Assembly: GCA_001803565.1 (NCBI GenBank)
Contig: MHDQ01000142.1
Span: forward strand, 1 to 6,078
Source of the DNA: Nitrospinae bacterium RIFCSPLOWO2_12_FULL_45_22
GTDB taxonomy: Bacteria > 2-12-FULL-45-22
DNA length: 6,078 nt
Reading direction: 5' to 3'
How positions within the stretch are numbered: position 1 is the first letter of the stretch; the number at the start of each line of letters is the position of its first letter. Position numbers and translations under genes: made by a program. The notes under the pieces are model-generated. The model ran no database searches and was not told the DNA's origin. It worked only from the letters and a program-made list of their open reading frames with translations. Below, in pieces: positions 2,090 through 6,078 of this stretch.

Positions 2090-3820
2090 TCAATTTTCTT
2101 CCCTAGAGGATTCAGCCTCTTCTGCTTTTGGGATGGAGCCTGAGCCCTCTCCCAGGGATAAAGCTTCCTCTTCTGCCCCTTCTCGGGCTATTAAGCTTAG
2201 CCCTAGTTTTCTCCCCTCCAGTTCAATCCTAATTATTCTAACCATCACTTCATCGTCCAGAGAGATTACCTCAGCGGGGCTAGATATTTTTTTCTCACTC
2301 AATTGAGAGAGATGGATTAATCCCTCAATCCCCTCTTCTATCTCAGCAAAGGCACCGAAGTTAGTAAGTTTAATAATTTTGGCCTTAACCACATCACCAA
2401 CTTTATAGCTACTTTCAACCTTTTCCCATGGGTCTGGTGTTAATTGCTTGATACCAAGCGAGAGACGGGCAGTTTCCTGATCAATATTCAAGACCTTAGC
2501 GCTAACCTTCTGCCCCTTCTTTAGTATATCTGAGGGATGTTTAATCTTTTGGGACCAGGAAATATCGGATATATGAATCAGCCCATCTATACCTTCTTCT
2601 AGGGCTAAAAAAGCACCAAAATCCGTTAGATTCCGGATCTTACCCTCCACTGTTGATCCTACCGGATATTTCTCCTTGATGGTATCCCAGGGGTTAGGCT
2701 CTATCTGCTTCATACCGAGGGATATGCGCCTATTTTCTTTATCCAGGGACAAAACTACTGCTTCAATTACATCACCCGGGGATACTATCTTAGACGGGTG
2801 TTTAATCCTCTTATCCCATGAGAGTTCAGAGACATGAACCAGTCCTTCGATGCCTGGCTCTAGTTCTACAAATGCACCATAATCGGCAATGCTAATAACT
2901 TTCCCCTTAACCTTGCTCCCTAGGGCATATTTAGTATCAGCTTCTGCCCAGGGGTCTTGTTTCATCTGTTTTATCCCAAGGGATACCCGTTGGCTTTGGC
3001 GGTCATATTTAATGATTATAATCTTGACTTTGTCTCCTAGACTAAGTAGTTCCGACGGATGTTGGATCCTACCCCAGGCCATATCAGTTATATGGAGCAA
3101 GCCATCAATACCTCCTAAATCAATGAAGGCGCCATAATCAGTGATATTTTTCACTACCCCGTCGAGGATTTGTCCTTCTTCTAAGCGGGCTAAGAGATCC
3201 CGTCGGCTTTCCTCTTTCTCCTCTTCCAGGATTGCCCGCCGAGAGAGGACTATATTGCCACGACGTCTATTCATTTTTATAATCTTCATCCTAAACTTTT
3301 GCCCGATGAGTTTGTCCAGATTCCTTATGGGTCTCAAATCAATTTGTGAGCCTGGTAGGAATGCCTTCAAGCCTATGTCTACTGCTAAGCCCCCTTTAAT
3401 CTTAGCTATTACTGTACCTTCCACTGCTTCATTATTATCATAAGCCTGTGTGAGATCATCCCAGACCTTTATCTTATCGGCCTTTTCCTTAGAGAGAACT
3501 ATTTGGCCTTCACTATCCTCCATCTTTTCCAGGTAGACTTCTACCTGGTCTCCTATTTTAAGGCCCCTACCTGCACCAGGGAACTCAGAGAGAAGGATAG
3601 AGCCTTCTGACTTATAGCCCACATCTATTAAGGCCGAATCTTTTTCTATCTGAATAACTACCCCCTGAACTATTTCGCCTTCCCGGAAGGGTTTCAGGGT
3701 CTCTTCATAGAGTTCATCCATATTTTCATATTCTTCCAAATTAAAATTATTATCGGTTAAAACAAGAGCTGATGCCTTATTAGACAGCTCTTGTTGCCCT
3801 GCCTCTTTCTCTTCAAGCAT
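2090..3820 (-). CDS. rpsA: 30S ribosomal protein S1 (six S1 domains)
   Basis: This 576-residue protein is close to the length of E. coli S1 (557). Six OB-fold S1 repeats can be placed at about 46-112, 131-196, 215-285, 300-372, 387-459 and 473-545. Repeats 3-6 are the most canonical, each with an [DN][YF]GAF motif followed by a GL[LIV]H[IVL][ST] motif, and repeats 3-5 end in SLG[IM]KQ. Repeats 1 and 2 are diverged, as in other full S1 proteins where they contact the ribosome while 3-6 bind mRNA. The tail (546-576) is acidic and rich in Ser/Glu. S1 recruits mRNA leaders to the 30S subunit. A strong AGGAGG at 3830-3835 supports the start. The unusually structured leader upstream may allow self-regulation, which is known for E. 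coli rpsA, but that is inference here. Confidence 0.97.
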   Translation of the reverse strand: MLEEKEAGQQELSNKASALVLTDNNFNLEEYENMDELYEETLKPFREGEIVQGVVIQIEKDSALIDVGYKSEGSILLSEFPGAGRGLKIGDQVEVYLEKMEDSEGQIVLSKEKADKIKVWDDLTQAYDNNEAVEGTVIAKIKGGLAVDIGLKAFLPGSQIDLRPIRNLDKLIGQKFRMKIIKMNRRRGNIVLSRRAILEEEKEESRRDLLARLEEGQILDGVVKNITDYGAFIDLGGIDGLLHITDMAWGRIQHPSELLSLGDKVKIIIIKYDRQSQRVSLGIKQMKQDPWAEADTKYALGSKVKGKVISIADYGAFVELEPGIEGLVHVSELSWDKRIKHPSKIVSPGDVIEAVVLSLDKENRRISLGMKQIEPNPWDTIKEKYPVGSTVEGKIRNLTDFGAFLALEEGIDGLIHISDISWSQKIKHPSDILKKGQKVSAKVLNIDQETARLSLGIKQLTPDPWEKVESSYKVGDVVKAKIIKLTNFGAFAEIEEGIEGLIHLSQLSEKKISSPAEVISLDDEVMVRIIRIELEGRKLGLSLIAREGAEEEALSLGEGSGSIPKAEEAESSREEN

Positions 3821-4021: not shown

Positions 4022-4867
4022 TTATTGACCATCGAACTTTGAGAGCAATTTTTCCCGGATATCTTCTATAAGCCAATAGGGGGTAGAAGCCCCGGCGGTT
4101 ATCCCTATCGTCTTCTTCCCATCTAACCAGGGAATCTCTATGTCATCGGCCGCCTCTATCTGAAAAGTATGGGGTTGTTCCTGGCGACAGAGGTGAGTTA
4201 AGTGGGCAGTATTAGCACTAGCTCTACCTCCTATTACCAGCATAACATCAACTTTCCTGGCCAGCTCTACTGATTCTTTATACCGAGCTTCAGTAGAGGT
4301 ACAAAGAGTATTGAAGACTTTTATTTCTTTAGCTATTTTTAGCAGTTCTGACAAGGCCGACAAGAAATTTGCCCCGGGTTGAGTGGTTTGAGCTACTACA
4401 CCTATCCGCTCCTGGATTATATGTTGACTTATCTCTGTCTTGTCCCTGATAACGATACTGTTTTTTCCGGCATATTCCTCGATCACTTTTACTTCAGGAT
4501 GCTCCTTATCGCCTATAATTATTACTTGATAGCCCTCTTCTCTAAGAAATTCAGCATATTCCTGCACTTTTTTAACCGTAGGACAGGTAGCATCCAGGAT
4601 ATTTATCTTCTTATTTTGGGCTTCGGTAAATACCGAAGCTGGGGCTCCATGAGAGCGGATGACCAGGGCACCTTTTTTAATTTGGCTCATATCTTCAATT
4701 ATCTTTAAGCCATTTCCCTCCAGATCCTTTACCACCTGAGGATTATGGATCAAAGGCCCCAGGGAATATAGGGGCTCTTGGCCCTCTTTCAAAGCCTCAT
4801 ATGCCAGCGAGAGGGCCCTCTTTACTCCATAGCAAAAACCTGCTTTTTGGGCGACTAAAACCTCCAC
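4022..4867 (-). CDS. ispH: 4-hydroxy-3-methylbut-2-enyl diphosphate reductase IspH (LytB)
   Basis: This is the last enzyme of the non-mevalonate isoprenoid pathway, reducing HMBPP to IPP and DMAPP with a [4Fe-4S] cluster. The 281 residues are normal for short IspH. All three cluster cysteines are present: Cys12 (GFCYGV), Cys95 (DATCPTV) and Cys189 (NTLCTST). Substrate-site residues also match the E. coli enzyme: His41 (IHNPQVV), His73 (RSHGA), His123 and Glu125 (EHPEV), the Thr pair at 161-162, Ser217/Asn219 (ASANTAHL) and Ser261 (TAGAST). The third-cysteine motif is somewhat divergent from the common NTIC-x-AT-x-x-RQ. The start is a GTG one base after the cmk stop, preceded by AAGGAAGG ten bases upstream. 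It puts the first cysteine at position 12, as in E. coli. It is co-transcribed with the TyrA-Cmk gene, judging by spacing. Confidence 0.96.
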   Translation of the reverse strand: MEVLVAQKAGFCYGVKRALSLAYEALKEGQEPLYSLGPLIHNPQVVKDLEGNGLKIIEDMSQIKKGALVIRSHGAPASVFTEAQNKKINILDATCPTVKKVQEYAEFLREEGYQVIIIGDKEHPEVKVIEEYAGKNSIVIRDKTEISQHIIQERIGVVAQTTQPGANFLSALSELLKIAKEIKVFNTLCTSTEARYKESVELARKVDVMLVIGGRASANTAHLTHLCRQEQPHTFQIEAADDIEIPWLDGKKTIGITAGASTPYWLIEDIREKLLSKFDGQ

Positions 4868-4868
4868 T

Positions 4869-6078
4869 TTAGGACAGCCTTCCTTTTATTTCTTTTAGCA
4901 TGATCTCTTTTACTTTTTCAATAGATAATTGCGTGGTATCTATGTAGATAGCATCTGGGGCCAGGCTCAAAGGAGCTAAGTCTCTATTGGAGTCATCCAT
5001 ATCCCGTTTCCTTAGACTTTGTTCAATAGTCTTCAGGTCTACCTCCAACCCCGCCTCTTTTAATTCTTTATGCCGACGATAAGCCCGGGCTTCTACTGTA
5101 GCATCCAGATAGAATTTTACTTCGGCCTCGGGAAATATTACTGTCCCGATATCTCGGCCATCCATAACTACCCCGCCATCTTTCCCCAGGTTCCTTTGCA
5201 ATTCCAACAGGGCCTTCCTTACCCCAGCAAAAGCTGATACTGCCGAGGCCCCCTTACCAATCTCTTCATCCTTAATCTTGTCTGTTATGTCTTCCCTATC
5301 CAAATAGGCCCGCACAGTATTATCGTCCATAGTCCTAAACTGCAGCTCGAGGGCCGAGCTGAGCTGTGCCAGGGATTCCTGATCATCCCAGGAAATCTTT
5401 TCTTGCCGGGCTTTCCAGGCCACTGCCCGGTAGATAGTACCAGTACTAATATAAGTATAATTAATGGCCTTGGCAATAAGCTTGCCTAAACTACTTTTCC
5501 CTCCACTAGCTGGGCCATCAACAGCTATTATTAACTCATTCTTTCGCCTGCTCCTTTCGCAGGATTTTACTATTGCCCGAAATTCCCTGGCTAGAGCAAA
5601 CTGCTGTTCCAATGCGTCCCCTTCTGCCTTTGCTATATAGGACTTTAGCCGTTCCAGATGTTCCTGGAAATATTCTATGGCCTGTAAGATGTTATTTCGG
5701 TTAGAGAGACAAATATCCCGCCACATGAGGGGATGACTGGAGGCCACCCGGGTAAAATCTTTAAACCCACCAGCCGGGAAAGAAAGCATCTGCTCATCTT
5801 CCTGAGCTAGCTCTCGAATAGTATTCACTAACGAATAAGCCACCATATGGGGTAAGTGACTGATCCGGGCCAGGGAGCAGTCATGGGCTTCTGGCTCCAT
5901 AAGGATCACTTTCACCCCGATCATCTCCCAGAGCTGACTTATCTTCTCTATTGCCCAGAGGTGAGTCTTTGAAGTTGGGGTTAAAATACATTTAGTATTG
6001 GCAAAGAGTTCTGGAAAAGCGGCTTCTACTCCGGACTTCTCTGTCCCGGCAATGGGATGTCCTCCAACTAAAGAGATA
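4869..6078 (-). CDS. tyrA-cmk: Prephenate dehydrogenase (C-terminal part) fused to cytidylate kinase, 5' end off window
   Basis: One frame without a stop runs from the right edge to TAA at 4869-4871, 402 visible residues. Residues 1-172 are the TyrA part: GGHPIAGTEKSG (5-16, catalytic-type His7), ISHLPH (72-77), then AGGFKDFTRVA (102-112), whose Arg110 matches the prephenate-binding Arg of Aquifex TyrA. Its NAD-binding start lies outside. Residues about 180-402 are a full-length cytidylate kinase, which phosphorylates CMP/dCMP: P-loop GPASGGKS (188-195), STGTIYRAVA, DGRDIGTVIFP (306-316), and the LID-type RDMDDSNRDLAPL. The ATG at 5924 falls inside the TyrA domain and is not the gene start. 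TyrA and Cmk are usually separate, commonly with aroA between them. AroA is missing here. The junction carries a ribosome-site-like sequence and an out-of-frame ATG, so an indel may explain the fusion. Domain calls are secure; the fusion as expressed protein is less so. Confidence 0.88.
   Translation of the reverse strand, partial: ISLVGGHPIAGTEKSGVEAAFPELFANTKCILTPTSKTHLWAIEKISQLWEMIGVKVILMEPEAHDCSLARISHLPHMVAYSLVNTIRELAQEDEQMLSFPAGGFKDFTRVASSHPLMWRDICLSNRNNILQAIEYFQEHLERLKSYIAKAEGDALEQQFALAREFRAIVKSCERSRRKNELIIAVDGPASGGKSSLGKLIAKAINYTYISTGTIYRAVAWKARQEKISWDDQESLAQLSSALELQFRTMDDNTVRAYLDREDITDKIKDEEIGKGASAVSAFAGVRKALLELQRNLGKDGGVVMDGRDIGTVIFPEAEVKFYLDATVEARAYRRHKELKEAGLEVDLKTIEQSLRKRDMDDSNRDLAPLSLAPDAIYIDTTQLSIEKVKEIMLKEIKGRLS
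5531..5557 (-). promoter_or_regulatory. Relic or frame-shifted cmk start signal at the TyrA-Cmk junction
   Basis: On the minus strand AAAGGAG (5551-5557) is followed, 11 bases later, by ATG (5537-5539), which reads ATG-AGT-TAA and stops at once. The cmk frame is one base away. Adding one base just after the AGT would give a start such as Met-Ser-x-Ile-Ile-Ala-Val-Asp-Gly-Pro, a normal cytidylate kinase N-terminus. It would also make the TyrA frame end at TGA (5518-5520), a classic short overlap. The signals are seen directly; their history is inferred. Confidence 0.5.

Follow-up and report, generated by a model that had tools for sequence, protein, structure and literature searches.

In an uncultured Nitrospinae bacterium, prephenate dehydrogenase (TyrA) and cytidylate kinase (Cmk) are encoded in one open reading frame, and we consider it highly probable that this frame is a genuine fusion of two neighboring operon genes, tyrA and cmk. 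We favor this reading because the frame holds both domains and lacks a canonical start for Cmk close to their boundary, because this is the single Cmk gene of the genome, and because the same architecture occurs in three genera of the related Nitrospinota family f268 and in a genome of another family (G389). The reading also rests on the linkers of f268, which vary and yet keep Cmk in frame, on unfused relatives that show intermediate states, and on an AlphaFold2 model with confident domains, a terminal TyrA helix, and a short flexible linker.

Results

The fused frame and its neighborhood

The window, i.e., the whole stretch of DNA that was analyzed, is the entire contig C142, 6078 bp long, from an assembly of 3.67 Mb in 321 contigs that is 85% complete. 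A stop-free frame of 402 aa occupies positions 4869-6077 of the minus strand. The original prediction that TyrA and Cmk share one frame is thus borne out; it had the architecture right, but lacked the strand and the 5' truncation of TyrA. TyrA is truncated because the window is the whole contig and the gene runs off its end. What remains (the last ~170 residues) is the end of the NAD-binding domain and the complete dimerization domain; the N-terminal NAD-binding half lies outside the contig here and is complete in the fused relatives.

In this one frame, Pfam profiles place PDH_N at residues 2-59 (profile positions 97-154 of 154), PDH_C at 61-160 (1-100 of 102), and Cytidylate_kin at 184-398 (1-210 of 211). 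The dimerization domain therefore runs to its end and is followed by a short linker and a full Cmk, as had been proposed. On the minus strand, the TyrA part covers 5598-6077, the junction coding for CERSRRKNE was placed at 5535-5561 by sequence and three-frame reading, and the complete CMP/dCMP kinase occupies 4869-5534, with its TAA stop at 4869-4871. The Cmk half scores 242.6 bits against TIGR00017 of NCBIfam (cut-off 135.55), and its alignment includes the Walker A motif GPASGGKS, GRDIGT, and the lid motif, as in cytidylate kinases. The TyrA half is 37-59% identical to TyrA of the relatives and has the motifs of a prephenate dehydrogenase, SHLPH (with the catalytic His) and WRDI. Judged by these motifs, both halves look functional. 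In the 85%-complete assembly the fused copy is the only Cmk, and there are no other matches to PDH_N.

All recognizable genes of the contig are on the minus strand, in the order tyrA-cmk, ispH (lytB; 4022-4867, GTG start), rpsA (ribosomal protein S1; 2090-3820), sppA (signal peptide peptidase; 1187-2080), hup (HU-family DNA-binding protein; 492-770), and miaA (1-489, its 3' end cut by the contig end). Among these, rpsA is the next gene of the supraoperon and has a homologous position in the relatives, the order of sppA and hup matches theirs, and hup-miaA is also found in genome G032. The GTG of ispH lies one base past the cmk stop (TAAAGTG, 4865-4871), a spacing that suggests translational coupling. 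Contig C227, which carries mreB-like and hflX-like genes, aroK, and aroC, was considered as a continuation of the window through miaA, and this was not shown.

The junction

The protein reads KSCERSRRKNE and then LIIAVDGP, which leaves about nine residues between TyrA and Cmk; the corresponding DNA is AAATCCTGCGAAAGGAGCAGGCGAAAGAATGAGTTAATAATAGCTGTTGATGG. At the usual start site of cmk, an SD-like GAAAGGAG is followed 11 nt later by an ATG that is one base out of frame. The two elements are probably a relic of cmk's own start. If the fusion is real, the out-of-frame ATG would be such a relic; otherwise, it may mean that the assembly lacks one base. Since the junction sequence alone cannot separate these two readings, we searched for the same architecture in other genomes.

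The same fusion in other genomes

The first search covered 386 genomes from across the phylogeny and found the fusion in the source genome only, and tyrA immediately 5' of cmk, with no aroA between them, in several unrelated families. The second used a DNA pattern for adjacent tyrA-cmk across a collection of 84,980 species and returned 50 loci, nearly all from Nitrospinota and Omnitrophota. The tyrA stop lies before or just within cmk in 49 of them, and the remaining one is fused (L078, Nitrospinota NC_groundwater_1031). In the third survey, of 77 Nitrospinota genomes, a TyrA-Cmk frame was found in five species from three genera of f268 (each 48-50% identical to residues 3-398 of the window's frame) and in one species of family f263, G389 (40% identity). 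The full set of PDH_N, PDH_C, and Cytidylate_kin is present in L113, L117, L123, and L078, and the window has the arrangement of f268: one frame with these three domains and a short linker. Chance is excluded as an explanation of the fused frame because six other genomes share it. Relatives with the same fusion, proposed as a check of the original prediction, thus exist in f268 and G389; separate genes, which were to count against it, are found in many relatives, but others are fused as here. Protein patterns run on genome contigs retrieved no close relatives of the source, and the one other genome examined from its order (G001) had no match. The fusion was not found on plasmids, nor, at the thresholds used, in the phyla of G207 and G018. 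Overall, fused genes are found in three separate groups, out of about twelve family-level lineages in which tyrA and cmk are adjacent.

These genomes bear on the possibility that the assembly of this contig is wrong by one base; tyrA and cmk would then overlap in the organism, and cmk would begin at the out-of-frame ATG. Several observations fit such an error. The SD-like element and the ATG are at the right place and off by a single base, one base missing just after this ATG would give the overlapping layout of L086 and L090, and overlaps of 17-23 nt exist in L086, L090, and L100, where the tyrA stop falls inside the I/V-D-G codons. Yet, the other complete genes of the contig, ispH, rpsA, sppA, and hup, are all intact, and the six other fused genomes are independent of this assembly. 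In our judgment, which is not a computed value, an error is improbable.

Tandem repeats of 7 bp encode the linkers of f268; the unit is CTCAAAG in G454/L078 and resembles CAATCTT in the other genomes. The linkers vary in length and repeat content among genera, and Cmk is in frame in 5/5. That Cmk stays in frame despite these differences is what selection for a fused product would predict. Positions 3099-3136 of L078 and the junctions of L113-L117 show how the 7-bp repeats, free of in-frame stops, make up the inter-domain linker, with a repeat unit that differs by genus. No tandem repeats were found in the linker of the window, and no 7-bp repeat was seen by eye in that of G389. Within its Cmk domain, L078 also has an in-frame insertion (2853-2894) coding for PPLSSPPSEGGEGGG, which is absent from the other fused species and looks like a small inserted repeat element.

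Expression of the fused frame

In an AlphaFold2 model built from a 35-row alignment (mean pLDDT 89.6, both domains mostly >90), the last TyrA helix extends to residue 176, a short loop of low confidence spans 177-182, and the first Cmk strand begins at 183. With a pTM of 0.65, this model does not fix how the two domains are placed relative to each other. Upstream of the Cmk P-loop (DGPA), the closest in-frame ATG, GTG, or TTG is at a distance of 31 codons; it is a TTG and belongs to the last TyrA helix. The frame could be really fused and Cmk still be made also, or mainly, as a separate protein, by internal initiation (e.g., at this TTG) or by cleavage of the linker. In favor of such a route, an AAGGGG-like stretch lies just upstream of the TTG, and the linker is basic and is modeled as flexible. 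However, none of the fused genes has a canonical start near the Cmk boundary, and their nearest in-frame starts, 26-54 codons upstream of DGP, are within TyrA and at places that are not conserved. We regard a separate Cmk as quite unlikely. Programmed frameshifting at the junction, giving TyrA alone and TyrA-Cmk as in dnaX, is very improbable: the SD-like element before CGA AAG AAT GA and the A_AAG tetramer, followed by a TGA in the -1 frame, fit it, but there is no slip heptamer, the downstream structure is no better than that of shuffles (z 0.4 to 1.4), and the feature is absent from the other fused genes.

Unfused relatives and the number of origins

In most relatives, tyrA stands directly before cmk and the two are separate genes. 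They may be neighbors in different frames, overlap, or share a frame that is broken by one stop. The last of these states was found in five further genomes among the 77 Nitrospinota; one stop also separates the tyrA and cmk parts of G660 and those of G032, in which tyrA ends with TCC TGA where the window has TCC TGC. A concatenated tree of the adjacent pairs only groups the window with f268 (99/96) and places G389 apart. In the best of the broader trees, each built from one gene, the window does not group with f268, and a single clade is not rejected (p-AU 0.135 for Cmk and 0.114 for TyrA). Two or three independent fusions are the better guess, which is not proven.

Some loci deserve mention in their own right. 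The tyrA genes closest to that of the window (L124, L132, and L180 of family f266; 55-59% identity) are followed by rpsA, with no cmk between. The contigs of L097 and L107 are labeled Neomarinimicrobiota and Nitrospirota, and their tyrA-cmk group inside Nitrospinota in the trees; they are probably mis-binned or misnamed. The cmk of G032 is interrupted by Ns, an assembly gap, around position 2305 of L034, where the frame changes. At 3110-3150 of L089 (Nitrospinota CSMAG_3060), cmk has no ATG, GTG, or TTG, and an SD-like AAGGAG precedes ATA/ATT codons, which therefore points to a non-canonical start or to a base error in a run of A. Finally, the Cmk of L038 (G188) is in a 666-aa open frame immediately after AroA, with one TGA reported in the match, and may represent an AroA-Cmk fusion or an open-frame coincidence.

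The whereabouts of aroA

The fusion had been attributed to the loss of aroA from an ancestral cluster. This is not supported: the relatives also lack aroA at that site and carry it at another. In Nitrospinota, Omnitrophota, and G032, tyrA is directly ahead of cmk with no aroA between, and AroA is encoded elsewhere in every fused relative searched (f268 and G389), as well as in G032 and others; in G032 its place is behind aroC, at the opposite end of this cluster. The claim that aroA is missing stands for the place between tyrA and cmk, but not as gene loss from a genome whose assembly is 85% complete and breaks after aroC. A search for aroA elsewhere in this assembly matched, within the EPSP-synthase family, MurA only. 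The aroK and aroC genes are on C227, and this contig ends right at the end of aroC; aroA may therefore be simply unassembled, in the gap that follows.

Discussion

Under a genuine fusion of neighboring operon genes, the ancestor would have had tyrA immediately 5' of cmk, with no aroA between, within a pheA-hisC-tyrA-cmk-rpsA-sppA-hup cluster. The stop of tyrA and the separate start of cmk would have been lost by substitution or by a small indel at the junction, giving one protein. In this product, a CMP kinase that folds on its own would be attached by a short C-terminal tether to a dimeric prephenate (or arogenate) dehydrogenase. Each half would keep its own reaction, and the link would ensure that the biosynthetic enzyme and the core nucleotide kinase are translated 1:1. 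Two independent enzymes made 1:1 from one cistron are the most likely outcome, and we infer that full-length TyrA-Cmk is made, uncleaved and with both halves active. If the fusion is selected at all, co-expression is the best reading of what is selected. The fusion thus most likely reflects gene neighborhood and shared expression rather than new chemistry, in agreement with the original view that shared expression is the simplest reason for it. So far, nothing supports channeling between the two enzymes or a functional cross-talk of tyrosine with pyrimidine metabolism.

A bolder reading, which we think rather unlikely, is that TyrA-Cmk is a conserved bifunctional protein, formed on two or three occasions in the same way and retained because the link itself has a function, the heptanucleotide repeats of one family, stop-free in every frame, having served as an instant linker. 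If so, the link might tie tyrosine synthesis to pyrimidine nucleotide status, or stabilize one half via the dimer of the other.

A fusion of neighboring operon genes is of interest beyond this genome. It adds a core nucleotide kinase to the partners of TyrA and shows that operon neighborhood alone can choose a fusion partner. The relatives, with separate frames, overlaps, a shared frame with one stop, and fused genes, provide a natural series for operon gene fusion, including linkers made of 7-bp repeats. The fusion also calls for caution in Rosetta-Stone inference, as it need not imply a functional link between tyrosine and CMP.

In the open-access literature we found no description of a TyrA-Cmk protein, consistent with the earlier remark that it is not known to be characterized; automatic UniProt or InterPro annotations may exist. 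TyrA is known as a popular fusion partner, and the published list comprises AroQ, AroF, HisHb, ACT, and REG, without Cmk; the catalytic partners listed there are all from aromatic biosynthesis (PMC1173090). The mixed-function supraoperon pheA-hisC-tyrA-(aroA)-cmk-rpsA of the same study has the gene order and content seen here, where no aroF/aroA stands between tyrA and cmk. The fused frame has no match to the EPSP synthase domain (PF00275) and qualifies neither as TyrA-AroA nor as AroA-Cmk. TyrA-AroA (EPSP synthase; NCBIfam PRK14806, tyrA-aroF in Jensen's nomenclature) likewise has TyrA at the N-terminus and a partner from the same supraoperon, but in the window Cmk takes the place of an enzyme of the aromatic pathway, and the score of 190 bits, which comes from the TyrA part only, falls short of the cut-off of 902. 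AroA-Cmk (NCBIfam PRK11860) likewise has Cmk at the C-terminus, joined to an upstream neighbor of the aromatic pathway, but its N-terminal partner is AroA instead of TyrA, and the window scores 204 bits, over Cmk only, against a cut-off of 943. PanC-Cmk (PRK13477) and Cmk-Der (PRK09518) also put Cmk in one chain with an enzyme lacking an obvious metabolic link; their partners are others, and the window matches over the Cmk part only. In this company, TyrA-Cmk is new as a fusion architecture and familiar in kind.
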